In this document: positions 10,370 through 54,928 of the stretch, piece by piece
How the letters are laid out: every line of letters starts with the position of its first letter
Numbering within the stretch: the first letter of the stretch is position 1
Source of the DNA: Marinobacter sp.
Lineage (GTDB): Bacteria > Pseudomonadota > Gammaproteobacteria > Pseudomonadales > Oleiphilaceae
Assembly: GCF_014859525.1 (NCBI RefSeq)
Contig: NZ_JACUUB010000002.1
Location: 62,001 to 126,000, forward strand
Direction of reading: 5' to 3'
Length of the DNA stretch: 64,000 nucleotides
Program-made: the position numbers and the translations under genes
The notes under the pieces: model-generated
Seen by the model: the letters and a program-made list of their open reading frames with translations, nothing else
Told to the model about the DNA's origin: nothing
Databases searched by the model: none

Positions 10370-10450
10370 GGCAAGGCTTCTGGCGGGGTTTGATCTTTAA
10401 TTAAAGTGGAAAACCGGTATCATACACACAAACCGAATCAGGGAACACGT

Positions 10451-11257
10451 ATGCGGGTAGTATCAATCAGCGTCAATGGTCTTGAACAGGCCGTTGAAAA
10501 AGGCTTTTTCGACTGGCTGGCCGAGCAAGACGCTGACGTCGTCTGTGTTCAGGACCACCGCATGCGCGCCTACGAGATTGAGGACAAGCACCTGATCCCG
10601 GAAGGTTACGAGGCTTACTTTATTGACGGTGAGCTGAATGAGCACGGTGGCGTGGGTATCTACACCCGGCATTTCCCGAAGGCGATCATGTACGGTTTTG
10701 CCAATGAGCAGGCGGATCGTGAGGGCCGGTTTATTCAGGCCGACTTCGACAAGGTGTCGGTGGCCTGCGTGCTGGCCCCCAATGCACTCGGCCGCGAAGA
10801 TGAATTAATCGGCGACGACGACCTGACCGTGCTGGACCATAAGGACGAGTTTCTGGAGGCTTTCGGCTTGCATATGCAGAAGACTCTGCGCAAGCGCCGG
10901 CAGTTTATTTTCTGCGCCAACCTGCAGACGGCTCATCACGTTACGGATGCCAGCCCGCTTTATCACAAGCTCGACTTTTCGGGCTTCCTGCCCCATGAAC
11001 GTGCCTGGCTGGATCGGTTGTTTGATGAAATGGGCTGTATTGATGGCTTCCGTGAGATCAACAAGCAGAGCAATCAGTTTACCTGGTGGCCGGAGAGTGC
11101 TGAGGGTTCCCGCAAGAAGGCGGGCATTCGGGTAGATTACCAGCTGCTGACCCCCGGGATCCGCAAGACCATTCGCGATGGCTGGATCGACGAGGACACC
11201 CGGTTCTCCGATCACGCGCCGGTGATCATGGATTACGACATCGAAATCGGGCTCTAG
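10451..11257 (+). CDS. crc: Catabolite repression control protein Crc (ExoIII-fold, degenerate active site)
   Basis: 268-residue protein with the exonuclease III/AP-endonuclease fold. It resembles Pseudomonas Crc closely: SVNG at 7-10, EQGGV-like NEHGGVGIYTR, GRFIQADFDKVSVA, FLPHERAWLD, QFTWWPE and VDYQLLTPGIR. In true ExoIII the catalytic Glu34 and the Asp151/Asn153 pair (GDxN) are needed; here the first is Asp35 (QDHR) and the second is ANLQ at 156-159, so both metal/catalytic positions are substituted, as in Crc. The terminal SDHAP motif is kept. Crc partners Hfq to repress translation of catabolic mRNAs; it has no nuclease activity in Pseudomonas. Many automated pipelines would label it exodeoxyribonuclease III. 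The ATG at 10451 is chosen by alignment; the frame opens at 10406. Confidence 0.85.
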   Translation: MRVVSISVNGLEQAVEKGFFDWLAEQDADVVCVQDHRMRAYEIEDKHLIPEGYEAYFIDGELNEHGGVGIYTRHFPKAIMYGFANEQADREGRFIQADFDKVSVACVLAPNALGREDELIGDDDLTVLDHKDEFLEAFGLHMQKTLRKRRQFIFCANLQTAHHVTDASPLYHKLDFSGFLPHERAWLDRLFDEMGCIDGFREINKQSNQFTWWPESAEGSRKKAGIRVDYQLLTPGIRKTIRDGWIDEDTRFSDHAPVIMDYDIEIGL

Positions 11258-26370: not shown

Positions 26371-26476
26371 CGGATTCTCCCGGATTTTTGTTTTAAGTTT
26401 CAAGTTGCAACCAGATTATCAGGAAATGGCTGTCAGTTGAAAGCAAGGATAATAGAGGGGTATGACCTTTGTTCAT

Positions 26477-26532: not shown

Positions 26533-29500
26533 TTAATGCTCGATCGGCAGTTCCTTTATGGGGTTTGAGATGAAGTTCAGGTAGATGCCGCCTTCCGGAA
26601 TCGTCAGCGGAATCAAGACTGCCCCTGAGTCCGCTGACGACCCGTCAAGAAGGTTCTCACAATCCGAGGTATCACCGAACAGGAGTCCCCCCAGACAGCT
26701 GATCAGCCCGATGCCGGAATTAACAATCGCACTTTCGGTACTGACCAGCACGTTGATGTCGGGCGCGTTTTTGTTGCGCTGTTCGATCTGCATCCGGCCA
26801 TCGTCGAAGAAGGTGATGGGGCCATCCAGGCTCAATGTAATCGGCAGATTGTACAGGTTATGCTGGAGCACCCCCTGGAGCGGTACGGAGAGGTTTGGCG
26901 CATCGAGGGTCAGCTCTGCCGTGGTTTTGAAGATAGGGCCACCGTTGGCATCTTCTATAATAATGCCTTCAATGAGTTGGTCCCTGCGGCCTTCTGCACC
27001 CTCGCTGTAGCGCATTCTCAGTACCTGCGGGCCGGTAACCTGATCGCCAAGGCCGTCCAGCACTACGGTTGCGGACGTTGCAACGAGCATAGTCGGGTAC
27101 AGTAAAATCTTGATGCCCGCTTTGTTGGTTTCCGGGTCGATGGCGGGACCAACGACTTCGGTGTTCAAACCGTAGGTCTGATAAATGAACTTGTCGCGGG
27201 GGCAGCCACCTTCGGTATCGGCCGCACATCCCACGGCGGCCCCTGCCGGTGCGCCCAGGACGGTTGCCTGTTTCCCTTTAACAAGAAGCTTCGCGGCATT
27301 GGCCGAAGGCAGGAAACCGCCCATTCCATCACTTTCGTGCTCGAATGGTTCCAGGCAACTTTCTCCGCCAAGAGTGGGACAATCAACTTCAAAGTTTGAA
27401 TTGGTATCCCTGACAGGCAAGTTCCGGAGTGGTGTAAACACCGACGCAATGGACTCGGCGCCCCGAAAGTAGATGGTCATGTCCGGGCCGCCAACAGCCT
27501 CCGGGTTGACCAGGAGATCCGTTTTCAGGGGATAACCCGGCCCCTGGTCGGAGCAAATAGCTTGAGCACAATTGCCCACGGCGGTAGACGAACGCAGCGT
27601 GTAGCGGTAAAAGCTGCCTGGTTCCCATGGCTGATCCGGGAAGAACCGGATGCGCTGGTTGTTCTTTTCAATGCGGCCGCTGACGATCTCGCCGGCGCCG
27701 ACAGCGGTTGCCGGGTCGCTGACCTTTTCAACAACCAATGTCTCTCTGTTGATCGTGTCAACACGCATGGACTGGGAGAACACGACAATGATCGGGCGGT
27801 CTGCCGGCATGTCTGTAATTGGCAACATGTCGCCAGCAGGGCCGCTGGGCGCTGCATCAAGACATTGGCCATGGCTCAGAGTCCCGAAATCAGCAGCCGT
27901 GGTCACGCAGGGGAAGCCGGGATAAGTCGTCAAGGCAATCGGCGAGCGTTTCGTTACGCTGTCATCGTTGTCGCCGGTTGAGGCCATGACGAAATCGAGG
28001 TCCTGGAAGAGGGCTTGGTTGCCTGCCAGGTCCGAGAGCCCGTTCGGAGAGACCCGGTACGCCAGGCCATGTTTCAGGCCGCCCTCAGGATTGATGGTGA
28101 GCGTTGTGCCGTCCACTTTCACATGAAGATTCTCAACAACGGTTCCAGCTTCAAACAGGGTAACGCCATTCGAGGCCGTCGCTGGGTCCAGTGGTTCATC
28201 AAAATTCAGAATCACGGGATCACCCGGGCGCTGCATGGCCTGGCGAGTGCGGGGAATGGCACTCTCCGGGCCGGGCATCCAGCTGACCAGCTGCGGCGAT
28301 GTGGTGTCCAGTTCGCGTATTGAATCGGCGTCCAGTACAGAGTCCACATCGGTGGCCGCCTGTAAGTGGAAGGCAATGGTGGAGTCGGTAAATTCCTGAC
28401 CCAAAAGGTTAGGCTCGACTATGCCGATGGCATCAATCGTCAGAATGCCATCCTGGACCAGCGCAATCCCGCGCAGCTCCACCCCCATCAGATCCTGAGA
28501 CAGCGATGCATTGGGCTGGGCCTCTTCGGTGTTCATGGAGACATCCATAAACAGGGTGATATGGCGCGGTGCGTTCAGGTCGTCGGTATAGGGATTCGGG
28601 CTGAGGTAGCCAGACGCATCCGACAGCATGGTGACCTTGATGTTACCTGTCGTCTGCAGCTGGCCCGTAGCGGCGTCCAGGATGGGAACCTCGCCGCCTA
28701 TGCGAACATCCAGGCTGGTGCTGTTCAGCACACTGCCTTTGGGTACCCGCAATGGCAGCGCCTCATCCGACTTGAAAGCAGGGGCATAAGCCAGCTCAAC
28801 AAACAGATCGCCTGTTTGCTGGGAGGGGCCTGCTACGCCCTGAAGTACAGAGTTCAGGGTAACACCGTTGATAATCTGGCCGTTCAGGATAGAGCGTTGC
28901 GCGGCATCTTCCGATGCTCCCTGGGCCAGGCCGGAATCTACCGCAGTCTGTTGCAGAACCACGGTCGGGCCGGTAGCGCGGGGCTGGAAACTGAATTCCT
29001 GGCTGAAGCGGTCACCGTCCGGGCCGTTGGTCAGGCTGGTCAGGTTATTCAGCCTAAGTGTATAGGTCTGGCCTGACTGCAGCACATCGGCCTTGCTGCC
29101 GCAGTCTTCAATATTCGCTGTCAGGCACGGATCAACCGTAATGCGATTGCCTTTGACCAGTAAGGTGGCGGGCACAGCCTGATTGTCTGAATCCAGCAGT
29201 TCAATGGTGCCGCCGAGTTTTTTCCAGTCCGGATGGACCGGATGGGTCATCGCGAGGCGGAAGGTGGAGAAATTCATCGCCCGGAAGGCGCTGCCCTCAT
29301 CCGGCACCTGCCAGGCCACCCGGAATGTTTCGTCTGTGTTGGTCAGGCTGGCGATGGCGGTAAAATCGCCCCGCGTGTCGAACTGAATGCCCGGCTCGCC
29401 GACGGCGTTCGGGGTGGCGATGGTGCGGCCACCCTGGGTCGAAAGCGGCTGCTCGAAGGTGACGGAGTAGCGTGTCAGGGTATCGAGCCTGTTCACCGGT

Positions 29501-29790
29501 TGGAGCTTCAGGCTTTTGCCGCCGTCGATTTTTTCGACGCTAACGTCATGAGAAGTATCGCCAGACATGATGCGGATTTTCTCGCGCAGTGTGGCCTCAT
29601 CGTCGGTAATGGCGTGGGAGAACCGCAGCACCAGTTCGGTTTTCGGGCTCACATCGGCTTGCCCGTCCATCGGAAAGGAATACACCACCGAACCCGGCGC
29701 GGTGTGCTCATTCATGGTTTGTTCATCACTACCACCGCAGGCGGCGAGCAGAATTGCGGGAACAAGAGCCAGCGTTTTATTGTATTTCAT
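26533..29790 (-). CDS. AupB-like Ig-fold lipoprotein, module 1
   Basis: 1085-residue lipoprotein. The signal sequence ends in LLAACGG, so Cys18 is the predicted lipidation site, with Gly at +2. Near residues 38-135 and again near 520-600 are bacterial Ig-like (SbsA/Big_5-type) domains (VVYSFPMDGQADVSPKTELV; DPVILNFDEPLDPATASNGV). Around residues 795-803 is DTNSNFEVD, an EF-hand-like calcium loop. The C-terminal region carries FFDDGRMQIEQRN, shared with its paralogue at 31434. It starts 13 bp after the AupA-like gene, with a GAGGAG ribosome binding site. In Marinobacter hydrocarbonoclasticus AupB, the partner of the FadL-type porin AupA, is reported in the inner membrane and needed for uptake of micellar alkanes. 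The assignment here is by arrangement and type, not by computed alignment. Confidence 0.75.
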   Translation of the reverse strand: MKYNKTLALVPAILLAACGGSDEQTMNEHTAPGSVVYSFPMDGQADVSPKTELVLRFSHAITDDEATLREKIRIMSGDTSHDVSVEKIDGGKSLKLQPVNRLDTLTRYSVTFEQPLSTQGGRTIATPNAVGEPGIQFDTRGDFTAIASLTNTDETFRVAWQVPDEGSAFRAMNFSTFRLAMTHPVHPDWKKLGGTIELLDSDNQAVPATLLVKGNRITVDPCLTANIEDCGSKADVLQSGQTYTLRLNNLTSLTNGPDGDRFSQEFSFQPRATGPTVVLQQTAVDSGLAQGASEDAAQRSILNGQIINGVTLNSVLQGVAGPSQQTGDLFVELAYAPAFKSDEALPLRVPKGSVLNSTSLDVRIGGEVPILDAATGQLQTTGNIKVTMLSDASGYLSPNPYTDDLNAPRHITLFMDVSMNTEEAQPNASLSQDLMGVELRGIALVQDGILTIDAIGIVEPNLLGQEFTDSTIAFHLQAATDVDSVLDADSIRELDTTSPQLVSWMPGPESAIPRTRQAMQRPGDPVILNFDEPLDPATASNGVTLFEAGTVVENLHVKVDGTTLTINPEGGLKHGLAYRVSPNGLSDLAGNQALFQDLDFVMASTGDNDDSVTKRSPIALTTYPGFPCVTTAADFGTLSHGQCLDAAPSGPAGDMLPITDMPADRPIIVVFSQSMRVDTINRETLVVEKVSDPATAVGAGEIVSGRIEKNNQRIRFFPDQPWEPGSFYRYTLRSSTAVGNCAQAICSDQGPGYPLKTDLLVNPEAVGGPDMTIYFRGAESIASVFTPLRNLPVRDTNSNFEVDCPTLGGESCLEPFEHESDGMGGFLPSANAAKLLVKGKQATVLGAPAGAAVGCAADTEGGCPRDKFIYQTYGLNTEVVGPAIDPETNKAGIKILLYPTMLVATSATVVLDGLGDQVTGPQVLRMRYSEGAEGRRDQLIEGIIIEDANGGPIFKTTAELTLDAPNLSVPLQGVLQHNLYNLPITLSLDGPITFFDDGRMQIEQRNKNAPDINVLVSTESAIVNSGIGLISCLGGLLFGDTSDCENLLDGSSADSGAVLIPLTIPEGGIYLNFISNPIKELPIEH

Positions 29791-29803: not shown

Positions 29804-31141
29804 TCAGAACTTCAGCGTGATGGAGCCGCTGAATACGTGAACGTCACCGTCTGCCGTAACGTCGGTTTCGTTGCCGTCGAAATCAACCAGCGTGAAATCG
29901 CGCTTTTGGAGCTGCTGATACTGATAACCCAGGTCCAGGCGCACCGGATACGCGAGCAGCCGGGTTCGGTCATAGGTGGCACTGATACCCAGCCCGGCCA
30001 CAATCTTGTCGGTATCCAGATAGTTCAGTTCCGGGTTGCGTGTGGTCTTCAAGGGCGACTCTTCATAAGCTACACCACCACGTACCGCAAAGTTTCGATT
30101 GAGCTGATACTCGGCGCCCAGACGGGGGATGAGCACATCATCAAATCGGATTCGGTCGCCCGCGGCAACGGACGACTGATTTCTGATGGTATCCCCAGCA
30201 AAGATATCTTCGAGTTCTGACCAGTTCTGCTGCTCGATGCTGCCACCGACGCGCCAGCCGTCACCGACATATTGCGTCCCAATGGCAAAGGTTTCCGGCT
30301 GGAAGGAGTCAATAGTGGTCACCGCCAGGTTCAGGCCGGGGTCCGGGATGGTTTGGGTGACTATAAAGTTGGAATCTACCGCAGTGGAGGCTGAGGATTT
30401 GGTGCGGTAGGTGATGGCGGTTTCCCAGCCGTTCAGGAAGCAATTGCGGTCAGGACAGAATGTGCTGCCCAGATCGATCTTGGTGCCGAGAATCGATTTC
30501 ATGGACGGTTCGGCGTTTACCTCCAGCCGCTCACGGCTGGTTTCACCGTTCAGGGTAGTGACTGCATCGAGATTGGCGGTGGCTTCCAGGGTGATTCGTA
30601 CAGAGGCACCCACGGAAATGCCGCGCCAGATTGGTGTGGCACCGCCAATGTTCAGAAACAGTGGCTCTCTGCCGTACTGCAGGTACTGACCGTTTTCGCT
30701 GGTTTCGGAGCCGAATGCCAGCATTTCCTTACCGTACTTCTCCACACCGGCCACAAACCCCAGGTAGATGGGGTGTTTGAAGCGGGTGAGTGAGCCCAGG
30801 TTGGTCTTCATGCCGATCAGCACATGCTGGCTGGGTGAGTTGGAGAGTACATCGCCATTGGCGCTGGGGTTGGCGGATCGCAGTTCCTGTTCGGCATGCA
30901 AAATGCCTGCTGTCAGCTCACCCCGCTCATCACTGGTAAGCGATGCCGGGTTGTAATAGGTTGCCGATACCTGGTCGTTGAACATGGAGAGGGATTGTGC
31001 GGTTGCCACGTCTACGGGCATAACGCCGTAGCTGGTGCCCAGGTTGCCCATGCTGGCATGAGCATTAACGGATAAGCCGGCTGTGGTTGCGGCGACTGCA
31101 AGAGTTAGTGCCCGCAAGGAAAAACGATGAGAACCTGGCAT
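29804..31141 (-). CDS. AupA-like FadL-family outer-membrane protein, module 1
   Basis: 445-residue predicted beta-barrel with signal peptide (cleavage after SVNAHA, about residue 29). FadL-type features are the N-terminal hatch-like SMGNLGTSYGVMPVDVATAQ, YYNPASLTSDERGELTAG, and the end SGSITLKF with a terminal Phe. Nearly every block is repeated in the second copy at 34616-35959. FadL-family porins carry hydrophobic molecules across the outer membrane; AupA of Marinobacter is the alkane-specific example. AGAGG ribosome binding site 9 nt before the ATG, with a CA motif directly upstream of it. First gene of a two-gene operon with the lipoprotein. Confidence 0.82.
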   Translation of the reverse strand: MPGSHRFSLRALTLAVAATTAGLSVNAHASMGNLGTSYGVMPVDVATAQSLSMFNDQVSATYYNPASLTSDERGELTAGILHAEQELRSANPSANGDVLSNSPSQHVLIGMKTNLGSLTRFKHPIYLGFVAGVEKYGKEMLAFGSETSENGQYLQYGREPLFLNIGGATPIWRGISVGASVRITLEATANLDAVTTLNGETSRERLEVNAEPSMKSILGTKIDLGSTFCPDRNCFLNGWETAITYRTKSSASTAVDSNFIVTQTIPDPGLNLAVTTIDSFQPETFAIGTQYVGDGWRVGGSIEQQNWSELEDIFAGDTIRNQSSVAAGDRIRFDDVLIPRLGAEYQLNRNFAVRGGVAYEESPLKTTRNPELNYLDTDKIVAGLGISATYDRTRLLAYPVRLDLGYQYQQLQKRDFTLVDFDGNETDVTADGDVHVFSGSITLKF

Positions 31142-31149
31142 AAATAAAA

Positions 31150-31165
31150 CCTCTATTGTTTTTGT
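31150..31165 (-). promoter_or_regulatory. CA motif (Hfq/Crc-type site) next to the AupA-like RBS, module 1
   Basis: Minus-strand ACAAAAACAAT (31155-31165) directly abuts the AGAGG ribosome binding site at 31150-31154. AAAAACAA fits the AAnAAnAA pattern bound by Hfq with Crc in Pseudomonas mRNAs. Binding here would block ribosome access. Confidence 0.5.
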
Positions 31166-31356
31166 AGTATTTATACATCTATGCTGGAGTTTAGACAGCT
31201 TGTCTTTTTAGGACGTTGGCCGGAGTGACACTCATGGCCCGTCGGAATGATCACGAGAATTTCTCAGCTTCATCTTTGTTGATAACGGCGGGCTTGGGTA
31301 GGGCAGTTCAGGCCGGGTTTGTTGGGGGTTTGTGAGTAAATGCGACGTTTTGTATG

Positions 31357-31381
31357 AAAAAAGGCCAGCGGATGGCTGACC
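31357..31381 (-). terminator. Terminator of module 2
   Basis: Seven-bp stem GGTCAGC / GCTGGCC (one G-U) with a U-tract in the leftward direction. It follows the GC hairpin at 31404-31427 in the module 2 transcript. Confidence 0.85.
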
Positions 31382-31403
31382 ATGAGGAAGGTTCGGTGAA
31401 GTA

Positions 31404-31427
31404 GCGTGCCCGGTTGCCCGGGCACGC
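31404..31427. repeat. Perfect 10-bp GC hairpin after module 2
   Basis: GCGTGCCCGG / CCGGGCACGC with a 4-nt loop (GCAA on the transcribed minus strand, a GNRA tetraloop), 7 bp beyond the lipoprotein stop. No U-tract follows, so it may be a 3' stabiliser placed before the true terminator. Confidence 0.75.
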
Positions 31428-31433
31428 TTGCCC

Positions 31434-34400
31434 TCAATTCTGGGTGTAGGGGGAGAGGTACCTCACGTGAAGCTCGTCAGGTGCAATGGTCATCGTGATA
31501 TCGGTATTCACATCGATAATCACGTTGGTAATACGATTAACCACGTTACAGAAGAACTGGAAGATACCGCAGTTTTCCAGAAAGCTTACGGTAGCCTCGC
31601 CCCGCAGCTGGATATCAACGTTAATCGGCTCAACATTGCGCTGTTCAATGACCATACGGCCATCGTCGAGGAATGTGATTGCTCCTCGTAGCTTTAGTCC
31701 GTCAATCGGAAAGCTTCGGAGGTTGTCCTCAAGCCTGGTGTTTGCCAGCCCACTCAGCCTCGAGTTCAGATAAGGCGCATCCAGGTAGATGTCCAGCTCT
31801 GTCTCAAAGGTAAGTTGGCCATCAATTTCGGAGATAACGCCATCGATCAGCTGGTTCCGGTTCTCACCTTGATAGCGCATTCGCATTAACATCGGGCCAG
31901 TTGGCAAAACCTGATTCGGGTCGCCGGTCTCAGTCGCCAAGCTCGCGAGGAAGTTGTTGTCTAACTGAATCCACACGTCACTCGACGTTGTAAGGAGAAT
32001 GGAGGGATGTAGCTTTACCGGAACTCTTTTTATTCCATCGCTCCCTTCGATGGCATCAGAAGCGACGGCAACGTCAAGTTTGGCCGTTTTGGCGATGAAT
32101 TCCCTGGATCTGTCGCATGAGGCTGAGCCGACTGAGCAGCCGATTCTGGCTGACCCAAGCACACCACTGTCTACCCCAGTAATCTCGAGGCGTCCCGAGT
32201 TTGCCGGGATGTTCTCGAATCCGGTCGCCTCGCTTGGTCTGTCCAGCCGCAAGTTGCTGTTAACATCCTTGGAGGGGAGGTTGTTTAATGGCAAGAAAAG
32301 GCGTTCTTCACCAGGCGCCGAGGCAACAAAACGGTTCTCCAGACTATGCCCGCCCGCTTTTAAGGCACTGAGGGGCCTGCCAGGATCCTGATACTGGTTA
32401 AGGAGGCGTGAATAAAGCGGCACATTCTCGGTATTGGTAATGGCATCGGTAAGAATGTATCGATAGGTTACTGATGGCTCCCAACTTTCCAAGGGTCTGG
32501 CTACAATCGTTCGAGCATCGATTTCCAGCTGGTAGTCGTCTTGACCCTCGACCTCACGCCAGGCTCCGTCGACACGCTTCTCAATCCTGAAGCTCTCTCC
32601 TTTTATAACGGAGGCCTGGTCAATGTTCTGTGAAAATCTTACCAGGATTGGCTTGTCTGCCGGGTGTTGATCGATAGGGAGCAGGTCGTCTAGTAAGCGC
32701 GCTCCGAAGTTAGGTGAGCTAGGCGTGAGGCTAGTGATCCCGCCGAGGCAGCGCCCCTGCCTGTCTGGCGTCTGGTCCATGTCGGTTTTAGCGCAGGGGT
32801 AGCCGGGCAGGGTTGTTAAGGCAACCGGACCCACATCCGTTGGAGTGGTTTCGCTGGTCTCAGGCAGCTGGAAAGGTAAGGACATGTTGCCCGCCAGGTT
32901 GCCGGAAAGGTCTGTTACGCGCTCGATTTGCAGAGTGTAATCCAGTCCATGCTCAAGCGGCTCATGGGGATTCATGATCAGCACCGAACCATTCACGCTC
33001 AGATCTGCTGCAATGGCGCTTGTGACAGCTCCATCGTTACCAATTAGCTGGATGTTTTCGGTGTTTATCGACGATGGCAGCACGGGCTCTGAAAAGTAAA
33101 CGATAATGGGATCGCCGGAACGGAAATTGTCGGTATTGTCACCTGGCACCCAGCTTTTGACGAATGGCGACGTCTGGTCCGCAAACTCCCCTGGCGTTGG
33201 GGCATCCTTCTCGAAGCGGAATCCCTCCAGTCTGAAAGATATCAGTCCTGAGGCTTGGTCTACGCCCATAACATCTGGTTCAATCACTCCGACAGCCTCA
33301 ATGGTCAAAGTCCCATCTTCCACGATGGCGGTGCCGACTAAGTGTACATGCAGCATTTGCTGAGCAAGTGCTGCGTTGGCAACCGGATTCTCGGTGTTGA
33401 GCGCCATATCGATGAACAGTTCGACGAGCCTCGGAGCATCCTCTGCCGTTGTGTAGGGGTTAGGCATCAGGAATCCGTTGGCGTCAGAGATGAAACGAAC
33501 GCTGACGGTATCGGATTCGAAACCTGCGGGTACTGCCCCGGCAACATTGACGACAACACTTGAGCCTGTCATCAGTGATCCACGGCTTATTGCCAGTGGC
33601 ACACTCTTCCCGGCCCTGTCGAAGCCAGGAATGTATCCGAGCTCCGCAAACACCACGCCGCTTGCAGTGGTAGGATTCTTCTCGCCCAAAAGTTTTGATT
33701 GCAGATTTACAGTATTGAACTTTTCACCTGACAGCGCGACTTCTCCAGCATTTGTCGAAGCTTTCTGGGCTGAAAACTGCCGTTCTCCATTTGGAGAGCG
33801 GGTGTCGGCAGGTTGAAAGGTCCAGGGGGCTTCTTCAGGCACGTGCAGTTTTGCCCCGAGTATTTCGCTTTCAATGCCGTCAGTGACTTCAATAGAGTAG
33901 GTTTGTGATGGGTCCAGGTAGTCGTCGGGGTCAATCGTTAAACGGTGTCCGCGGAGAAATACTTCGGCTGGAACCAGATTACCCGCGCCATCACGAAGAC
34001 TGATGGTTTCCCCATAGATCAAGGTTGAAGATTTAACCGGTTCTGTAAACTGAATCCTGAGCACCGATAGGTCTGTTGCAGGGTACCGGTTGTCATCGAA
34101 CGGGATAAACCGTGCGATACGGAAATCGACGTCTTCAGTCTGATTAACCAGAGGCCCCCTGGTTGCGGGTTCTGTCTTGAAAACAATGCCATCGCTAGTG
34201 AGCGTAACCGGCTGGCCCGCGACTTCCAGTCCGTTTGCTTTGAGCGTGTAGACCTGGCGTGGCGCCAGAGGGGATGCGGGTTTGACCGCGAGGCCTTTAT
34301 TACCTGCGGTCATGGTCGCAACACCCAACGGGACGGCATTGCCTTGGCTGTCAGTAAGGATAAGTGCGTCTGAAAGTTCGTCTTCCGGTGTGGTGATCTG

Positions 34401-34604
34401 GTCGGTAAAGCGCAGAAAAATCGGAGCCGACACCGGCACCGTATTGGTAAACAGTTGGTTGCCGTCAGCCATCACCGGGGTGTCAGCCGGGTAGGCGAAA
34501 TACAGCTCAGGAGCTGAAGCTGCCTTGCTCACAGTCTGTTTTTCACCACCACAGCCCGTCAAGCCCAAACCTGTCAATGCAAGCGCAAGAATTGTCTTGT
34601 TCAT
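31434..34604 (-). CDS. AupB-like Ig-fold lipoprotein, module 2
   Basis: 1056-residue paralogue of the lipoprotein at 26533. The lipobox is LTGCGG, so Cys18 is the likely lipidation site. Shared landmarks are ALTTLPGYPC, MALNTENPVANAALAQ, GTLTIEAVGVIEPDVMG, the loop DVNSNLRLD around residue 781, LHPSILLTTSSD and FLDDGRMVIEQRN. Ig-like segments (PVSAPIFLRFTDQITTPEDE; GDPIIVYFSEPVLPSSINTENI) resemble Big_5 domains. It looks more diverged from its paralogue than the porins are from each other, and by eye its codon usage is less biased than that of its neighbours. Starts 11 bp after its porin; ends at two hairpins. Confidence 0.75.
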   Translation of the reverse strand: MNKTILALALTGLGLTGCGGEKQTVSKAASAPELYFAYPADTPVMADGNQLFTNTVPVSAPIFLRFTDQITTPEDELSDALILTDSQGNAVPLGVATMTAGNKGLAVKPASPLAPRQVYTLKANGLEVAGQPVTLTSDGIVFKTEPATRGPLVNQTEDVDFRIARFIPFDDNRYPATDLSVLRIQFTEPVKSSTLIYGETISLRDGAGNLVPAEVFLRGHRLTIDPDDYLDPSQTYSIEVTDGIESEILGAKLHVPEEAPWTFQPADTRSPNGERQFSAQKASTNAGEVALSGEKFNTVNLQSKLLGEKNPTTASGVVFAELGYIPGFDRAGKSVPLAISRGSLMTGSSVVVNVAGAVPAGFESDTVSVRFISDANGFLMPNPYTTAEDAPRLVELFIDMALNTENPVANAALAQQMLHVHLVGTAIVEDGTLTIEAVGVIEPDVMGVDQASGLISFRLEGFRFEKDAPTPGEFADQTSPFVKSWVPGDNTDNFRSGDPIIVYFSEPVLPSSINTENIQLIGNDGAVTSAIAADLSVNGSVLIMNPHEPLEHGLDYTLQIERVTDLSGNLAGNMSLPFQLPETSETTPTDVGPVALTTLPGYPCAKTDMDQTPDRQGRCLGGITSLTPSSPNFGARLLDDLLPIDQHPADKPILVRFSQNIDQASVIKGESFRIEKRVDGAWREVEGQDDYQLEIDARTIVARPLESWEPSVTYRYILTDAITNTENVPLYSRLLNQYQDPGRPLSALKAGGHSLENRFVASAPGEERLFLPLNNLPSKDVNSNLRLDRPSEATGFENIPANSGRLEITGVDSGVLGSARIGCSVGSASCDRSREFIAKTAKLDVAVASDAIEGSDGIKRVPVKLHPSILLTTSSDVWIQLDNNFLASLATETGDPNQVLPTGPMLMRMRYQGENRNQLIDGVISEIDGQLTFETELDIYLDAPYLNSRLSGLANTRLEDNLRSFPIDGLKLRGAITFLDDGRMVIEQRNVEPINVDIQLRGEATVSFLENCGIFQFFCNVVNRITNVIIDVNTDITMTIAPDELHVRYLSPYTQN

Positions 34605-34615
34605 GATTAGCCTCG

Positions 34616-35959
34616 TCAGAACTTGAAGGTCACAGAGCCCGCGACAACGTGAACGTCGCCATCGGTTTCGACGGTTTCATTGGCGGTTTCGCTACCAAAC
34701 GGGGTTACCTGAAAATCCCGCTTCTGCAGTTGCTGGTACTGGTAGCCGAGATCAAACCGGACCGGATAGGCAAACAGGCGGGTGCGCTCGTATTCAGCGC
34801 TGACACCCAGGCCGATCACGATCTTGTCGTTGTCGAAATAGTTGACCTCCGGATTCTGGGTGGTGCGCAGGGGCGATTCTTCATAAGCGATGCCCGCGGT
34901 GACAGCAAACGCTCTGGTCAGCTGGTATTCACCGCCAATTCTGGGTACCAGAATGTCGTCGAAAGACATTCTCAACCCTTCACTGACTCCGCTTTGATTC
35001 TTGATGGTGTCCTTGGCGAAGGCATCTTCAAGTTCCGACCACTTCTGATGTTCGAGGCTGGCCCCGATCCGCCACCCGTCTCCCTGGTAATGCAGGCCGA
35101 AAGCGATGATCTCGGGCTGGAAGGAGTCGATGGTGGAGACCGCCAGAGGCAATCCCGGCTCAGGAATCACTTGAGGGACCACCACATTGGCGTCCACCGT
35201 GGTTTTGGTGTTGGAGCGGGCGCGATAGGCGAGGGCTGTCTCGAAGCCGCTCACGATGCACGCCCGCTCTGGACAGATCGTTTCGCCAAGATCGACGTTA
35301 ACGCTGCCAATGCCTTTGATGGACGGTTTGGCGCTAACGCCCAGTCTTTCCTGGCTAGTCTCGCCGCCGAGGGTAGAGCGAGCATCGAGGCTGGCTTCAG
35401 CCTGCAGGGTAATCCGTGCTGCCACCCCCGCATCGATGCCGCGCCATATCCTGGTTGCGCCGCCGATGTTCAGAAAAAGAGGCTCGCGGCCGTACTGCAG
35501 GAACTGGCCGTCTTCGGAGGTTTCCGATTCAAAGGCGAGCATTTCCTTACCGTATTTCTCAACGCCGGCCACAAAGCCCAGATACAGAGGATGGCCGAAA
35601 CGAGTCAGCGAGCCCAGATTGGTTTTCATGCCAATGAGTACGTGCTGGCTTGGGGAGTTAGACACTACATCGCCGTCCCGGGTGGGGCTGCTGGCGCGTA
35701 GTTCCTGCTCGGCATGCAACAGGCCGGCAGTGAGTTCGCCCCGGGGGTCTTTGGTCAGGTAGGCAGGATTGTAATAAGTGGCAGACACTTGTGTATTAAA
35801 CATTGACAGTGCCTGCGCTGAGGCTATGTCACTGGGCATCACACCGTAGGTGGTGCCAAGGTTACCCATGCTGGCAAACACGGGGAACGACAGGGATAGA
35901 CTGATCGCCGAAACAGAGGCGCAGAGAATCCGCTTACCTGCGAAATCAAAGCCGTGCAT
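34616..35959 (-). CDS. AupA-like FadL-family outer-membrane protein, module 2
   Basis: 447-residue predicted beta-barrel, close paralogue of the protein at 29804. Signal peptide ends around FPVFA; then SMGNLGTTYGVMPSDIASAQ, YYNPAYLTKDPRGELTAGLLHAEQELR, SPSQHVLIGMKTNLGSLTRF and the long block LYLGFVAGVEKYGKEML are nearly unchanged from module 1. It ends VAGSVTFKF. Two Cys (CPERAC) are conserved in position with CPDRNC of module 1 and may form a loop disulfide. CGGAG ribosome binding site 6-7 nt before the ATG, with a CA-rich run just upstream. Probably imports hydrophobic carbon sources; specificity relative to module 1 is unknown. Confidence 0.82.
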   Translation of the reverse strand: MHGFDFAGKRILCASVSAISLSLSFPVFASMGNLGTTYGVMPSDIASAQALSMFNTQVSATYYNPAYLTKDPRGELTAGLLHAEQELRASSPTRDGDVVSNSPSQHVLIGMKTNLGSLTRFGHPLYLGFVAGVEKYGKEMLAFESETSEDGQFLQYGREPLFLNIGGATRIWRGIDAGVAARITLQAEASLDARSTLGGETSQERLGVSAKPSIKGIGSVNVDLGETICPERACIVSGFETALAYRARSNTKTTVDANVVVPQVIPEPGLPLAVSTIDSFQPEIIAFGLHYQGDGWRIGASLEHQKWSELEDAFAKDTIKNQSGVSEGLRMSFDDILVPRIGGEYQLTRAFAVTAGIAYEESPLRTTQNPEVNYFDNDKIVIGLGVSAEYERTRLFAYPVRFDLGYQYQQLQKRDFQVTPFGSETANETVETDGDVHVVAGSVTFKF

Positions 35960-35965
35960 TTTGAT

Positions 35966-35984
35966 ACTCCGTTGTTTTTTGTTT
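35966..35984 (-). promoter_or_regulatory. CA motif (Hfq/Crc-type site) next to the AupA-like RBS, module 2
   Basis: Minus-strand AAACAAAAAACAAC at 35971-35984 runs straight into the CGGAG ribosome binding site. AACAAAAA fits AAnAAnAA. It holds the same position as in module 1, though the surrounding leader DNA differs. Confidence 0.55.
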
Positions 35985-36344: not shown

Positions 36345-36869
36345 TTAAGCATTGTGCTGCAACTTCCGGCGAACTGTCAGCAGGCCCAGGATACCGAGAC
36401 CAAGAAGACCCAGTGTGCCCGGCTCAGGCACTTTAACAGTGTTGCCGTTAAACTCGGTCAAGTGGCTGAGTTCAAGATCTTCCAGTTTGTTGGAGCCGAA
36501 GTAGCTCAGCAGGTTGAACACACCCCAATCCATGCTTTGCTCGTTTTTGAACAGAACGTGTTTCTGGGCGTCTTTCACCAGGAAGTAAGTCGGCATGGTC
36601 ATCAGCTCGAACGCAATGACGCCGGCGTCTTCTTCCGTCACGATAAAGCTGGCAGGTTCGGTTCTACCGGCAAAGGTAAGTTGAGTACCGGCGATTCCTG
36701 ATGCCCACTCAGTTTCTGACGCTTCTCCTGAGTTAAGACCAATGGCTTCAGCGAGAAAGGTATCCTCACCACCCACGTCAATACCACCGGCGATGGTGTA
36801 GGCAAAGGCGCTGCCGCTGACACTGAAGGCCAGTAACGCACCGAATAACATAGTTTTGATTTTCATCAT
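36345..36869 (-). CDS. PEP-CTERM sorting-signal protein
   Basis: 174-residue exported protein: signal peptide (about 1-24, ending SGSAFA), a 125-residue beta-rich region with no recognised domain, and a C-terminal PEP-CTERM signal, VPEPGTLGLLGLGILGLL followed by basic VRRKL. PEP-CTERM proteins are cut and sorted by exosortase, usually in bacteria with exopolysaccharide biosynthesis clusters; no exosortase is in this window. AGGAG lies 7 nt before the ATG at 36869 (MMKIKT). It is monocistronic, with its own sigma-54-type promoter and terminator. Confidence 0.9.
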   Translation of the reverse strand: MMKIKTMLFGALLAFSVSGSAFAYTIAGGIDVGGEDTFLAEAIGLNSGEASETEWASGIAGTQLTFAGRTEPASFIVTEEDAGVIAFELMTMPTYFLVKDAQKHVLFKNEQSMDWGVFNLLSYFGSNKLEDLELSHLTEFNGNTVKVPEPGTLGLLGLGILGLLTVRRKLQHNA

Positions 36870-49680: not shown

Positions 49681-49825
49681 GGAATTCCGTGTTTGCGGTG
49701 CGCAAAAACGAAGATTTTAACGGTTTGCGCAGGAATTGCACACGTTTAGGCCGTATTCGTGAAGAGAAAGGTGATATCAGGGGGGGATTTTCGAGATTTT
49801 GACGTTTACCGAAGGCCAGATAATC

Positions 49826-49855
49826 AAAAGGCGGATCCGTTTTCACGAACCCGCC
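49826..49855 (-). terminator. CrcZ terminator
   Basis: GGCGG-G-TTCGT / ACGGA-T-CCGCC stem closed by a GAAA tetraloop, followed by UUUU (minus strand). Confidence 0.9.
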
Positions 49856-50208
49856 CTCAAAGCGTTGACGATCTGCATTGTTTTTGTTGTTGTCGGGATT
49901 CTTTTTGATTTTTCTACCCCACCGTGGTGTCCAAACGATAAGGACTTTAAGCAACGCAAACGGAAAGCTTTGAATACACAGAGCGGTCAGGAACATGGTG
50001 CGGGTTATCTGAATAGCTGCAGCGCCGTTTCGAAAACGATTCTTATCTACATCTACAACTCGCACATGCCTGGGGACCACTAAAAAGCAAAGTACCCAAA
50101 ACACTCAGTTCGCTTGCGTCCAGTTCTTGTTTTTGTTGGCGGACGCCTATGCAGCTTTTTGTTTTTGTTTTATCGCTGCGTTGTCACTTTTGTTTTTGTT
50201 GTTGTGCC
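49826..50208 (-). ncRNA. crcZ: CrcZ small RNA (Crc/Hfq decoy)
   Basis: About 383-nt RNA between cbrB and pcnB, exactly the CrcZ locus of Pseudomonas. The predicted 5' end reads GCACAACAACAAAAAC and is much like P. aeruginosa CrcZ as I recall it. A-rich CA clusters fitting AAnAAnAA lie at 50188-50205, 50156-50172, 50123-50139 and 49877-49893, with a weaker one at 49901-49912. It ends in a rho-independent terminator at 49826-49855. Transcription is expected from the sigma-54 promoter at 50219-50234 under CbrB. CrcZ soaks up Hfq/Crc and so relieves catabolite repression on poor carbon sources. The 143-codon frame at 49673-50104 is not believed. P. aeruginosa CrcZ is about 407 nt, close to this length. 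Confidence 0.9.
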
Positions 50209-50218: not shown

Positions 50219-50234
50219 TGCAGAGGCCGTGCCA
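50219..50234 (-). promoter_or_regulatory. Sigma-54 promoter of crcZ
   Basis: TGGCACGGCCTCTGCA: TGGCAC, 5-bp spacer, CTGC, one change from the RpoN consensus TTGC. The start site is predicted near 50206-50209. Confidence 0.85.
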
Positions 50235-50285: not shown

Positions 50286-50367
50286 TGTTACCCCGTATTT
50301 GCCTAAAGTGTTACCAGTCCGACGTTATGTTTTTCGGAAGTGTTACCGTGGGGAACGCCGGGTAACA
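50286..50367 (-). promoter_or_regulatory. CbrB enhancer sites upstream of crcZ
   Basis: Three TGTTACC copies (plus strand: 50286-50292, 50309-50315, 50341-50347) and one inverted GGTAACA (50361-50367), 52-133 bp upstream of the sigma-54 promoter and immediately after the cbrB stop. TGTTAC/GTAACA is the CbrB recognition element known from Pseudomonas. Confidence 0.8.
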
Positions 50368-50393: not shown

Positions 50394-51791
50394 TTATCCG
50401 TTTTTCTTGCGTGGAATGCCCAACCGCTGGCGACGTTCCCACAGGGATTTCCGGCTGATGCCAAGTTTCTGGGCCAGCTCGGTCTCACTCATCCGGTCCT
50501 GATTCTCCAGCACGAAATGCTGAAAGTAGTCTTCCAGAGACAAGTCGTTTGAAGCATCTGCATCCCGGGAGCGGGTCTGCTCATTATTGCCCTCTACCAG
50601 GGTTTCGGGAATGTATTCATCGCCGGAGTCGCTGTCCAGGTCCAGTACGGCCGGTGTGATGATGTCGCCATCCGTCAGTATGGAGGCCCGTTCGATGGCA
50701 TTTTCCAGCTCACGTACGTTGCCGGGCCAGCGGCAGCGCTCAAGCGCCTGCATGGCTTCCGGGCTAAGGCTGAGCTCTGGTCTACCCAGTTTCTGTGACT
50801 GTCGCTTCAGAAAGCGCTGGGCCAGGCCGAGAATGTCGGAGCGACGCTCCCGCAGCGGTGGAATACGGATCTGCATGACGTTAAGACGGTAATAAAGGTC
50901 CTCCCGGAATTCACCGGTTCGGGTCATGGCTTTCAGATTTCGGTGGGTCGCGGCAATCATCCGGACGTCGACGATGCGGCTTTGGGTGGAGCCTACTTTC
51001 CGTATTTCACTTTCTTGCAGCACGCGCAGCAGGCGCGCCTGGGCCTCCGCTGGCAGTTCGCCGATTTCGTCCAGGAACAGGCTGCCACCATCGGCGGCCT
51101 CGATCAGGCCGGTGCGAGCAGAGACAGCCCCGGTGAACGCGCCTTTTTCGTGGCCAAACAGCTCGGATTCAATCAGGCTCTCCGGAATGGCAGCACAGTT
51201 AACCGAAATGATCGGTTTGGTTGCCCGAGGGCTAAGCAGGTGCAGTGCCCGGGCGGCGAGTTCTTTACCGGTGCCGGATTCACCCTGGATCAGAACCGTG
51301 GTTTCGGTTGGTGCCACTTTGCGAATCAGAGTGAACACTTTCTGCATGGGCTCGCATTGGCCAAACATAATGGCGGAGGGGTCTGATGCTTCTGCACTGG
51401 GCGGAGTGGTCTGCTCATCGTGGGCCTGACTGCCTGCGTGGCTGATTTTGCGAGAGAGGATGTTTTCGACCGCCGCCAGCATCTCGTCATGGTCGAAAGG
51501 TTTGGCAATGTAATCGACCGCGCCCAGTTTCATGGAGTCGACCGCGGAACGCAGGCTGGCATAGCTGGTCATGATCAGCACCGGTGTGTTGGGCGCGCGG
51601 TTGATCATTTCAGTGCCGGCGGCGCCGGGCAGTCGCAAATCGGTGATCACCAGGTCGAAGTTGTCTGGCTCAAGGGTATCTGCTTCTTCTACGGAGACAG
51701 CATCCGCTACCTCATAGCCGGCATGCTGAAGCAGTTTGCGTACAGCTGAGCGGATAATGTCTTCATCTTCAACAATCAGAATACGGGGCAT
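50394..51791 (-). CDS. cbrB: Sigma-54-dependent response regulator CbrB
   Basis: 465-residue NtrC-type activator. Receiver domain (about 1-120) with the phosphorylated Asp in LVITDLRLPG. Central AAA+ domain with Walker A GESGTGKE, the sigma-54-contacting GAFTGA loop, and Walker B GGSLFLDEIGEL. C-terminal Fis-type helix-turn-helix ends ETELAQKLGISRKSLWERRQRLG. It activates crcZ and catabolic operons when phosphorylated by CbrA. It lies 7 bp after cbrA and directly upstream of the crcZ enhancers. Confidence 0.95.
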   Translation of the reverse strand: MPRILIVEDEDIIRSAVRKLLQHAGYEVADAVSVEEADTLEPDNFDLVITDLRLPGAAGTEMINRAPNTPVLIMTSYASLRSAVDSMKLGAVDYIAKPFDHDEMLAAVENILSRKISHAGSQAHDEQTTPPSAEASDPSAIMFGQCEPMQKVFTLIRKVAPTETTVLIQGESGTGKELAARALHLLSPRATKPIISVNCAAIPESLIESELFGHEKGAFTGAVSARTGLIEAADGGSLFLDEIGELPAEAQARLLRVLQESEIRKVGSTQSRIVDVRMIAATHRNLKAMTRTGEFREDLYYRLNVMQIRIPPLRERRSDILGLAQRFLKRQSQKLGRPELSLSPEAMQALERCRWPGNVRELENAIERASILTDGDIITPAVLDLDSDSGDEYIPETLVEGNNEQTRSRDADASNDLSLEDYFQHFVLENQDRMSETELAQKLGISRKSLWERRQRLGIPRKKNG

Positions 51792-51798: not shown

Positions 51799-54762
51799 TC
51801 ACGACCTTTCGTTCGGGGTGCTGTTGCCGGTATCGGTTTCTGGCTCGTAGGCGGGCAAGCGTAACCTCATGCAAGTGCCTCGGCCGGTGTTTCTGTTTGC
51901 CGGGCTTTCAACTTGTACGTTGCCATAGTGTTCTTCAACGATGCTGTACACCAGAGACAGGCCAAGGCCGGTGCCTTTGTTTGGTGCCTTGGTGGTGTAA
52001 AACGGCTCGAATATGTGATCCAACTGGTCTGCTGGAATGCCGGTACCCTCATCGATCACTTCGATGATAGCGGAGTAACCGTCACGGTTTCCACTGACTC
52101 GAATCGTACCCCCATCCGGTGAGGCGTCGCGGGCGTTAGCCAGGAGGTTGACGAAGACCTGAACCAGGCGCTGCTCGTCGCCCAGCACTTGCAAGCTTTG
52201 AGGGCATTGGTTGAGGTAGCTGATACCCATGCCCCTGTCACTTAATGAGAGCAGATTGATGGATTCTTCGATGCAGCGATGAATGTTGACCGGCTCGTAA
52301 CGATTGGCGTGGGCGTGATTGCCGGTACGGGCAAAATTCATCAGCGACTGAAGAATGGTGGAAATTCGCCGGGTTTGCTGCTGAATTTGGTCTGCGGTCT
52401 CCAGAATGGAGGGGTCGTCGGTTTCCAGTTTCAGATTTTGTGCCAGTGAGGAGATGCCGGTCACGGGATTACCGATTTCGTGAGCGACTCCGGCGGCCAA
52501 CCGGCCTACCGACGCCAGTCGCTCACTGTGCATCAATTCGTCTTCCAGCAAACGGGTTTCGGTTTGATCCTCAACCAGAATGATGGAGCCGCCTTCGGTA
52601 TGATCAGGCCCGCTCAGCGCAGCTTTGTGCAGGTTAAGCCAGTGAGGTTTGCCCCCAAGATCGAGCCGGTGTTTGTATCTGTGCAGCTCGTTATCCCGGT
52701 TGAAGTCGTCCAGCAGGGCATGCCAGCGATCCGGCAGTGCGAGCAGTTTTGCGCCAACCACTTCGTCGGCGGAAATGCCGGTGAGGAATTCCATGGCGTG
52801 GTTCCACATCAGAATTTCACCGTCCTCCCCCACAGAGCATGCCGGTATCGGCAGATTTTGCAGCGTCTGGCGGTAGTGCCGGCGCAAGTTGTCGAGTTCT
52901 CCGGCCAGTCCGGTCAGCTGGTTCTGGTAGTCACCAAGTGCACGCTCCACATAGCGGATGTCCTGGCCGGTGCCCCCGTGGGTCAGAGGTTTGAAACCCA
53001 GATGTCGTTTTACAATGTCGCGGGCGACTGAGGGCCCGAGCAGGCCCGAGAGGTTGACCTCTACCTGATCCCGCAAGCGTCGCAGCTGATACGGTCGGAA
53101 TTCCACATTGGGCAGTTTGAGCTGCTCGAGGCCACGTTCCACCTCTCTGCGTGCCACGCTCATGCCTAGCGGATCGGCCAACTGTTGAATAAAGTCATTG
53201 GAGGATGCCGCCAGCAATTCCCGGCGCTGGGGGCGGGAAAGCGCCCCAACGGAGCAAGCCTGAGCGGCACTGGTTTCTTCGGCGGAGGCCGGGCTCAAGA
53301 TAGAGACCAGGGCAAATACCGAAATATTGGCAGTCAGGCTGACAAACGTGAACAGGTGCCAGTTGTCGTACCCGGGCGAAACCGGCAAATCCAGCCAAAT
53401 GAGAAGGTCGGTGCCGTGAGAAAACGGCAGCACCAGGGTAATCAACCAGATGGCAAGACCGGTCATCAAGCCCGCGATCAGCCCGCGTCGATTGCCTTCA
53501 GGCCAGTAAATCACGCCCAGAGCCCCCGGCAGAAGTTGCAGGGTACCCGACAGCGAGATGGCCCCCAGAATGGAAAGGTCCAGATGCTGACCAATGGTCT
53601 CGTGAAACAGCAATGCCAGGAACAGGATCGCGGCAATCAGCAGGCGCTTGACCCATTGTAACCAGCGGTAAATGTCGCCCTGATCTTTCGGTGTTTTCAG
53701 GGGCAGCACCACATGGTTCAGCACCATGCCAGCAAGCGACAGGGTGCTCACAATCATTAACCCGCTGGCCGCCGATAAGCCGGCAATGTACATCATCAGG
53801 GTCAGTGCCGGACTGTCCAGTGCCTGCGCCACGCCAATGCTGAAAAAAGCGGCGGGCACACCAACGTCCAGCGCCTGGCCCGCCCAGACAATCAGCGGTA
53901 CCGGCAGGCCCAGCAGCAGCAGATAAAGCGGCAGGCCCCAACTGGCTTTTGCCAGCGCTCGGGGTGAGGGGTTTTCACTGAAGGTCATGTGGTACATGTG
54001 CGGTAGCACCAGCGCAGCGGCAAATGACATCAGCAACAACGCCCGCCAGCTACCGTCGTCAATCGCCGCGGTCATGGTGACTTCTGGGTGGGAGGCTTCG
54101 GCCAGCCATTGTTCGAGGCCGGCAGTGCCGCCGAAGACGCCAAACAGGATCACGCCGCCAAGAACCAGCAGGGCTACGACTTTGACCAGAGAATCAAACG
54201 CGATGGCCAGCACCAGGCCCTGGTGATTCCCAGTGTTCTGATGGTGACGGGCACCGAAGAGCATAGTGAACAACACCACGATCAGGCTGAACATCACGCT
54301 GATCGCTTTCGGGGATGTGTCGGGTGCCAGGAGGCTGGCGGATACTGCCACCGCCTGAATTTGCATGCTTAGCAGGGCCAGAATCGCGGCGGCAGAGCAA
54401 AGGGTGACGAGTGTGCCGGCCCATTGACTGCGGTAGCGGTAGGCGAAAAGATCCGCCAGCGATGTCAGCTGGTAGGCCCGGCCAATGCGAAGGATGGGGT
54501 TGAGCAGCACCGGGGCCAGCAGGAACGCCCCTGAAATTCCCAGGTAATAAGCCAAAAAGCCATAGCCCGATTCCGCAGCCATGCCGATGGCGCCATAGAC
54601 CGCCCAGATGCCGGCATAAACCCCAAGACTCAGTGTATAGACAAGCGGGTGCCGCACCCAGCGGCGCAGCAGGGTGCCGCGCTCGGTGCTCCAGGCGATA
54701 CCGAACAAAAGAATTAGATACAGGAGGCTGGCCAGTAAAAGGCCGGTGGCGCTAAAACTCAT
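51799..54762 (-). CDS. cbrA: Sensor histidine kinase CbrA with transporter-like N-terminus
   Basis: 987-residue membrane sensor. About the first 500 residues form a sodium/solute-symporter (SSS)-like domain with some 12-13 transmembrane segments. A PAS domain (about 610-720, SVGEDGEILMWNHAMEFLTGISADEVVG) leads to the HisKA dimerisation helix with phospho-His in AAGVAHEIGNPVTGISSLAQ, and then the HATPase domain (DEGTGIPADQLDHIFEPFYTTK, GTGLGLSLVYSI). It is the kinase partner of CbrB for carbon/nitrogen balance; in Pseudomonas its SSS domain can carry histidine. ATG 54762 is chosen because cbrX overlaps it by 11 bp; the TTG at 54801 is in frame but lacks an RBS. Confidence 0.95.
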   Translation of the reverse strand: MSFSATGLLLASLLYLILLFGIAWSTERGTLLRRWVRHPLVYTLSLGVYAGIWAVYGAIGMAAESGYGFLAYYLGISGAFLLAPVLLNPILRIGRAYQLTSLADLFAYRYRSQWAGTLVTLCSAAAILALLSMQIQAVAVSASLLAPDTSPKAISVMFSLIVVLFTMLFGARHHQNTGNHQGLVLAIAFDSLVKVVALLVLGGVILFGVFGGTAGLEQWLAEASHPEVTMTAAIDDGSWRALLLMSFAAALVLPHMYHMTFSENPSPRALAKASWGLPLYLLLLGLPVPLIVWAGQALDVGVPAAFFSIGVAQALDSPALTLMMYIAGLSAASGLMIVSTLSLAGMVLNHVVLPLKTPKDQGDIYRWLQWVKRLLIAAILFLALLFHETIGQHLDLSILGAISLSGTLQLLPGALGVIYWPEGNRRGLIAGLMTGLAIWLITLVLPFSHGTDLLIWLDLPVSPGYDNWHLFTFVSLTANISVFALVSILSPASAEETSAAQACSVGALSRPQRRELLAASSNDFIQQLADPLGMSVARREVERGLEQLKLPNVEFRPYQLRRLRDQVEVNLSGLLGPSVARDIVKRHLGFKPLTHGGTGQDIRYVERALGDYQNQLTGLAGELDNLRRHYRQTLQNLPIPACSVGEDGEILMWNHAMEFLTGISADEVVGAKLLALPDRWHALLDDFNRDNELHRYKHRLDLGGKPHWLNLHKAALSGPDHTEGGSIILVEDQTETRLLEDELMHSERLASVGRLAAGVAHEIGNPVTGISSLAQNLKLETDDPSILETADQIQQQTRRISTILQSLMNFARTGNHAHANRYEPVNIHRCIEESINLLSLSDRGMGISYLNQCPQSLQVLGDEQRLVQVFVNLLANARDASPDGGTIRVSGNRDGYSAIIEVIDEGTGIPADQLDHIFEPFYTTKAPNKGTGLGLSLVYSIVEEHYGNVQVESPANRNTGRGTCMRLRLPAYEPETDTGNSTPNERS

Positions 54763-54928
54763 TGGGATCTCGCCGCCACTCCAGCCAGAAACCAATGGCA
54801 ATCAGACCGCCCCAGATGACATAGGGGCTGTACCAGGTGTTGTCTGGCGAAGTCCACCAGTCCAGGATGTTGGGAGAGAAAATATAAATGGCCAGTACCA
54901 GCAAAAAGACCAGGCGGTAGATGTACAT
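54752..54928 (-). CDS. cbrX: CbrX small membrane protein
   Basis: 58-residue ORF, too short for a 60-codon cutoff. It begins MYIYRLVFLLVLAIY, continues with IFSPNILDWWTSPDNTWYSPY, and ends FWLEWRRDPNEF, giving two hydrophobic segments with aromatic-rich loops. Its stop lies inside the cbrA start region (11-bp overlap), and its start is 4 bp after the gluQ stop, so it is tightly packed and probably couples cbrA translation. Pseudomonas has a small cbrX gene in this exact position, reported as translationally coupled to cbrA. Confidence 0.85.
   Translation of the reverse strand: MYIYRLVFLLVLAIYIFSPNILDWWTSPDNTWYSPYVIWGGLIAIGFWLEWRRDPNEF

Follow-up and report, generated by a model that had tools for sequence, protein, structure and literature searches.

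The two aupAB modules and their leaders

The window, a stretch of 64,000 nucleotides from a genome of the Marinobacter group, contains two aupAB modules on its minus strand, and the leader of each aupA gene carries an A-rich motif of the type AAnAAnAA beside the Shine-Dalgarno (SD) sequence. aupA1 (29804..31141, ATG at 31141-31139) encodes an outer-membrane protein of the FadL/Toluene_X family (Pfam PF03349) of 445 amino acids, which is predicted by homology to be an alkane uptake protein. Its identity to the main Marinobacter aupA group is 74-86%. An aupB1-like gene (26533..29790), whose product has a Big_5 Ig-like domain according to Pfam, lies 13 nucleotides behind it. The second copy, aupA2 (34616..35959, ATG at 35959-35957), encodes 447 amino acids, is likewise identified by Pfam, and is 69% identical to aupA1. 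It is followed after 11 nucleotides by an aupB2-like gene (31434..34604), again with a Big_5 Ig-like domain by Pfam. Both modules have the layout of an AupAB operon, a FadL-family AupA with AupB close behind; AupB is assigned from position and Ig-like domain, without comparison to the AupB of strain SP17.

These modules resemble AupA/AupB of Marinobacter hydrocarbonoclasticus SP17, which comprise a FadL-family porin and an Ig-domain protein spaced by 11 nucleotides, as against 11 and 13 here (PMC5989066). AupA contributes to taking up alkanes that are dissolved in micelles (PMC5989066). In contrast to SP17, the window has two copies in tandem, and the SP17 data in the cited text are transcript levels, not translation. 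An aupA2 of at least 92% identity is present in four of 80 other genus genomes searched (G052, G018, G045 and G074). Among named records the nearest copies, at 92-96%, are those of M. shengliensis, M. excellens, and M. halophilus. A gene for a PEP-CTERM-motif protein lies directly upstream of aupA2 (36345-36872, minus strand).

On the minus strand, the module 1 leader reads ACAAAAACAA-TA-GAGG. Its motif, AAAAACAA (31156..31163), stands two nucleotides before the SD sequence GAGG (31150..31153). The aupA2 leader reads AACAAAAAACAA-C-GGAG and contains two overlapping motifs within AACAAAAAACAA (35972..35983), namely AAAAACAA at 35972-35979 and AACAAAAA at 35976-35983, one nucleotide before the SD sequence GGAG (35967..35970). 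The preliminary description had placed A-rich runs of this type at the SD sequence of both leaders (31150-31165 and 35966-35984) and had remarked that the remainder of the leaders differs; both statements are borne out by the sequence. That the motif is retained in both copies, whose leaders are otherwise dissimilar, is a point in favour of the Hfq account given below. Neither leader gives a folding signal (z -0.73 and 0.85).

The mere presence of the motif is weak evidence, since the 8-mer is common in the window. It occurs 36 times, compared to a shuffled mean of 24.9 (standard deviation 6.2), and crcZ holds 13 of these occurrences. A count of at least 36 is reached by 6 of 100 shuffles, and the window count alone was therefore dropped as evidence.

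Conservation and constraint of the A-rich box

The aupA gene is present in 61 of 81 genus genomes. Leaders were obtained from 102 of 103 loci and merged to 81 distinct sequences, from which four (L081-L084) and seven Alcanivorax-family loci were left out. The remaining 70 Marinobacter-group leaders include the two of the window and one titled Halomonas (L041), which is counted with Marinobacter. Start codons were picked by script, and a few are possibly wrong; one locus (L270) was cut at the wrong end of the intended gene and shows the neighbouring copy.

AAnAAnAA starts at -35..-16 in 62 of the 70 leaders, or in 60 of 68 without those of the window. Conservation ahead of aupA orthologues, the check which the preliminary description had proposed, is thus confirmed. 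The leaders are related, and such counts and their Fisher values overstate independence; the Fisher values are not true probabilities. The same interval has the motif in 11/292 genes of genome G052 and 7/303 of genome G064, together 18/595, both genomes being of the Marinobacter group and sampled over 400 kb; these background genes come from a long-open-reading-frame heuristic with a start rule that favours SD-like sites. Genes neighbouring aupA at the same loci have it in 3 of 161 distinct leaders. Shuffling -40..-15 of the same aupA leaders over 1000 rounds gives a mean of 8.5 and a maximum of 20 leaders with the motif. Among the 15 phases of six A and two N, AAnAAnAA is the commonest in the Marinobacter-group leaders (62, the next 51). 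Runs of at least three ARN triplets occur in 64/70 leaders, compared to 40/292 and 45/303 genes.

The motif starts at -32..-28 in 50/70 leaders, about nine nucleotides above the SD sequence, unlike in the window, where it adjoins the SD sequence. The aupA1 box of four close relatives (L284-L287) reads AAAAATAA, AAAAATAA, AACAATAA, and AAAAATAA, compared to AAAAACAA in the window, and differs from it at N positions only. A further set of 15 leaders, which includes these four, lies outside the 70 and repeats four leaders already counted; nine of the 15 have the motif at -35..-16.

The pattern of substitutions within the box follows its triplets. Fifty of the 70 leaders, which align without gaps, were selected only for GGAG at -11, which avoids a choice based on the motif, and changes per column were counted on the AupA protein tree. 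The motif is present in 49 of the 50. From -28 on, the A sites change 5, 5, and 3 times, the R sites 6, 9, and 8 times, and the N sites 10, 11, and 12 times, and the A-R-N order ends beyond -20. In the flanks, columns -60..-40 change 17-25 times and columns -39..-29 change 5-17 times, the 5 at -39 being isolated. On its distal face, Hfq offers one pocket for A, one for a purine, and a third site without selectivity (PMC6422490). The order A < R < N, with fewest changes at A sites and most at N sites, fits the constraint that this face would impose. In an alignment of 58 leaders the middle is variable, while the box, the SD sequence, and an upstream promoter-like block are conserved. Upstream of the aupA1 orthologues, at about -140 to -80, there is a conserved GACA-N-TGTCAA inverted repeat with a TACACT block, which suggests a shared aupA promoter with an activator site. 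At one locus, G070:C1:2580828-2583538, aupA seems to be in two parts separated by about 1.6 kb.

The motif is not shared by alkB leaders, where it was found in 7 of 22 distinct sequences (-35..-12; 30 loci). Four of the seven come from one close-relative group (90-100% identity), and alkB was rejected as a second conserved target. A protein with a Pfam FA_desaturase domain, which we take to be AlkB-like, is 99-100% identical over 407 amino acids in ten genus genomes (L299-L308) and has probably been mobile recently. Nine of these loci have one identical leader of 45 nucleotides containing AAnAAnAA.

Crc, Hfq, CrcZ, and genes with motif-bearing leaders

An exonuclease-III-like gene (10406..11257, plus strand) is identified as crc from its best matches in the Protein Data Bank (PDB), the Crc structures 4f1r and 4jg3 (E ~1e-72, compared to 3e-13 for exonuclease III, 1ako). 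With RNA-contact residues named as in PMC6422490 and 4jg3 numbering, K139, R140, R141, E193, and R229 are kept, whereas E142 is replaced by Q, R196 by K, and R230 by K. The neighbourhood of crc includes a phosphoribosyltransferase gene, rph, yicC, and gmk.

The crcZ gene (49795..50205, minus strand) contains five AAnAAnAA clusters. It matches the Rfam CrcZ family (RF01675) at 49795-50202 with 49.7 bits (E 6e-10), below the gathering score of 95 bits. The 408 nucleotides matched, the cbrB-like gene before it, and the sigma-54-type promoter resemble CrcZ of P. aeruginosa, which has 407 nucleotides and six A-rich stretches, in contrast to five clusters here (PMC4063720). The response regulator gene directly before crcZ (50394..51791, minus strand) is cbrB-like and sigma-54-dependent, with Pfam Response_reg and Sigma54_activat domains. 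It is preceded by a gene for a cbrA-like sensor kinase (51799..54801, minus strand) with PAS, HisKA, and HATPase domains. The first 600 amino acids of this protein, where CbrA proteins have an N-terminal solute-symporter domain before the kinase, have no Pfam match at E 1e-5. The crcZ promoter, TGGCACGGCCTCTGCA (50219..50234, minus strand), was recognised from its pattern GG-N10-GC, which we take to be the sigma-54 consensus. An inverted repeat upstream of crcZ, TGTTAC-N15-GTAACA (50341..50367, minus strand), may be a CbrB site, on the assumption that this is the site type that CbrB recognises.

Seven relatives, four Marinobacter and three halophiles, have crcZ arrays of 4-6 clusters, with a GG-N10-GC box in six. 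Matches to both Crc and CrcZ were found in all seven (7/7) of the Marinobacter and halophile genomes tested. CrcZ of the window's genome and of the seven relatives lies below the Rfam gathering score, and a search at that threshold misses it. An order-wide scan for CrcZ (29/145 genomes) used stricter filters, which lose weak matches, and absence from it is not used here.

The hfq gene lies elsewhere in the genome (contig C67, L104:1444-1692, minus strand), so that crc, hfq, and CrcZ occur together in one genome. The earlier statement that crc, cbrAB, and crcZ are in the window holds in that crc and a CbrB-like regulator followed by crcZ are found there, with the cbrA-like kinase assigned by Pfam.

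Searching the genome of the window for AAnAAnAA next to GGAG and an ATG yields 24 rows, compared to 4 for the reversed pattern. aupA1 is missing from this list because its SD sequence is GAGG. Among the 21 frames of at least 60 amino acids, those related to uptake or catabolism are aupA2, PutA, LctP, the small subunit of a sodium/substrate symporter, a PQQ-alcohol-linked binding protein, an acyl-CoA ligase, and a 3-hydroxyisobutyrate-dehydrogenase-like protein. The others comprise NosR, COX2, a PilJ-like and an OmpA-like protein, a LuxR-type regulator, an SDR protein, an isochorismatase, an alpha/beta hydrolase, a molybdopterin oxidoreductase, a DUF6316 protein, and three frames without a Pfam match. 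One frame of 61 amino acids was left out of the Pfam search, and several were cut at 501 amino acids by the locus end, which places some below the curated cut-off. The uptake and catabolic members count in favour of the Hfq/Crc account given below, though the list is catabolic in part only, as judged without comparison to a random gene set.

At the molybdopterin oxidoreductase gene, AACAAAAA stands beside GGGAG and an ATG at 26370-26368 (26368-26392, minus strand); translation may in fact begin at this ATG and not at the listed TTG, which lies upstream at 26403. An Rfam Ysr141 match of 72.7 bits (gathering score 196) at 20573-20825 on the minus strand is antisense to an open frame of 691 amino acids and perhaps reflects coding similarity.

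Possible action of Hfq with or without Crc

In P. aeruginosa, Hfq binds an A-rich stretch of amiE at -26 to -8 and represses its translation, and the 407-nucleotide CrcZ titrates Hfq (PMC4063720). Known Hfq/Crc targets with such motifs also include alkS, alkB, and alkG in P. putida GPo1 (PMC8606055). By analogy, the distal face of Hfq would bind the aupA mRNA at the A-rich box, within the region where translation starts. In the presence of a preferred carbon source, Hfq, held there with Crc, would keep the ribosome off aupA, and repression through the operon may lower aupB too. When the preferred carbon is exhausted, CbrAB would raise the crcZ RNA, whose A-rich clusters would take up Hfq, with Crc, and free aupA. 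We infer from the conserved box, from its A-R-N pattern of constraint, and from a genome that has crc, hfq, and crcZ that this sequence of binding, repression with a part for Crc, and relief by CrcZ is a rather probable account.

Like the Pseudomonas targets, aupA has an AAnAAnAA or ARN stretch in its initiation region and occurs in a genome with crc, hfq, and crcZ, and as an uptake gene it falls within the uptake and catabolic genes among the targets described (PMC4063720; PMC8606055). It differs from them in the gene, in the genus, in its short site of mostly three ARN triplets, and in the frequency of the motif in a family that lacks Crc; the case for aupA is drawn from sequence. Among the matches listed for literature on Marinobacter and the Crc/Hfq system, viewed as titles only, no title concerns Crc/Hfq in Marinobacter.

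Several observations weigh against this account. The exact 8-mer is absent from 8/70 Marinobacter-group leaders, of which four read ATAACAAAGACAAA, one reads AAAAAGACAACAA, and the remaining three belong to divergent copies whose leaders are different, and from 6/15 of the further leaders. The 70 leaders form 20, 12, and 4 clusters at 70, 60, and 50% identity, and the motif is in the majority in 16/20, 8/12, and 2/4 of these. The site is shorter than that of amiE, with three ARN triplets in most leaders. Hfq of the window's genome has Phe at position 25, a distal-face residue mutated as Y25D in PAO1 (PMC4063720). Of three leaders from Crc-bearing halophiles, AAnAAnAA is present in none; those of Halovibrio and Vreelandella utahensis have six consecutive ARN triplets and that of Halospina has two. 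Published induction of aupA fits the account, yet can be wholly transcriptional. In SP17, hexadecane raises aupA mRNA 8-23-fold over the level on acetate, and a non-metabolised alkane gave an 8-fold level at 15 min that was again at the reference level at 3 h (PMC5989066). In TT1 the fold change of AupA on hexadecane is 4.9, the comparator not being named in the passage that gives it (PMC7822026). It is the response to the non-metabolised alkane, together with the conserved promoter-like block upstream, that allows a purely transcriptional explanation.

The motif also does not track Crc across lineages. A Crc orthologue was seen in none of 46 genomes of the Alcanivorax family, to which Alloalcanivorax balearicus belongs. 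Identity there is 26% for the best match (E 3e-14) and at most 39% for partial matches covering about 90 residues, and two genomes lack any match; for comparison, Crc of Marinobacter and the halophiles matches at 59-90%. A paper on A. dieselolei states that a Crc homologue is lacking in Alcanivorax (PMC9788540). The Rfam CrcZ model had no match in the seven genomes of this family tested, and, with a CrcZ-like decoy in mind, no array of three clusters turned up in 400 kb of the family's genome G252. Nevertheless, the motif is frequent before aupA, with 21/48 leaders at -35..-16 and 37/48 within -60..-12, compared to 8/300 and 10/300 background genes of G252. These 48 distinct leaders come from 57 loci (30 returned by one search, 20 picked from its list before any leader was viewed, and 7 from another search) and do not cover every copy. 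They form 27 clusters at 60% identity, and at least half of the members have the motif in 18 (-60..-12) or 11 (-35..-16). AAnAAnAA is again the top phase (21, the next 10), and runs of at least three ARN triplets occur in 29/48 leaders, compared to 37/300 genes. In some leaders of this family (L200, L201, L213, L214, and others) AAnAAnAA lies at about -38..-52, with a short G+C-rich inverted repeat between it and the SD sequence.

The motif is not maintained by Crc in this family. It is thus best described as an Hfq-type (ARN) site, not as one specific for Crc. Hfq, found in 45/46 of these genomes, might use the site alone also in Marinobacter, either repressing aupA or pairing it with a small RNA, with Crc incidental there. 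Besides the Crc-less family, this explanation is favoured by P. aeruginosa, in which Hfq is described as the main repressor and Crc as ancillary (PMC4063720). On the other hand, the place of the motif is more constant in the Marinobacter group, with 50/70 leaders at -32..-28, than in the Alcanivorax family, with 21/48 within -35..-16, and both Crc and CrcZ are found in all seven Marinobacter and halophile genomes tested. Action of Hfq alone is regarded as unlikely in Marinobacter.

A role for the box as an A-rich enhancer of translation or a ribosome standby site, with no part for Hfq, is more improbable still. Ordinary genes also have A-rich stretches, and AAnAAnAA is the top phase of the 15 in their leaders in G052 and G252 and joint top in G064. 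Its rank in the Crc-less G252 (8, the others 0-5) speaks against the Crc account as well. However, a plain A-rich enhancer is not expected to produce the phase preference and the A-R-N constraint order of the aupA leaders, and the frequency of the motif before aupA is more than 20 times that of the background. That a functionless box persists through common descent of a short leader is very improbable, since, for all the relatedness expressed in the cluster numbers, columns -60..-40 change 17-25 times and the A sites 3-5 times in the same 50 leaders (column -39 also only 5), and dissimilar Alcanivorax-family leaders share the motif.

The proposal that Hfq acts with Crc on aupA is plausible in Marinobacter and is not the whole story, because the site persists in Crc-less genomes too. 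Of the earlier suggestion that alkane uptake is a Crc/Hfq target, the conserved Hfq-type site stands, and so do crc, hfq, and crcZ in the genome, whereas action of Crc itself is less well supported, as the motif also occurs in the Crc-less Alcanivorax family. The closed regulatory loop that was suggested along with it is a hypothesis. The conserved site is real, and aupA is a good new candidate for a known mechanism, its status as a target being predicted. A broader reading can be put forward tentatively. Control of alkane uptake by Hfq may be older than, or independent of, Crc, with a distal-face site before aupA kept across marine oil-degrading gammaproteobacteria; Marinobacter would have wired it to catabolite repression by Crc and CrcZ, and the Alcanivorax family would use Hfq alone or with another decoy or partner. 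That family, with the same type of site, offers a natural test of Hfq action without Crc. If aupA translation is set by Hfq and Crc, marine oil degraders would shut alkane uptake for as long as organic acids are available, with consequences for the lag and the rate of oil degradation.

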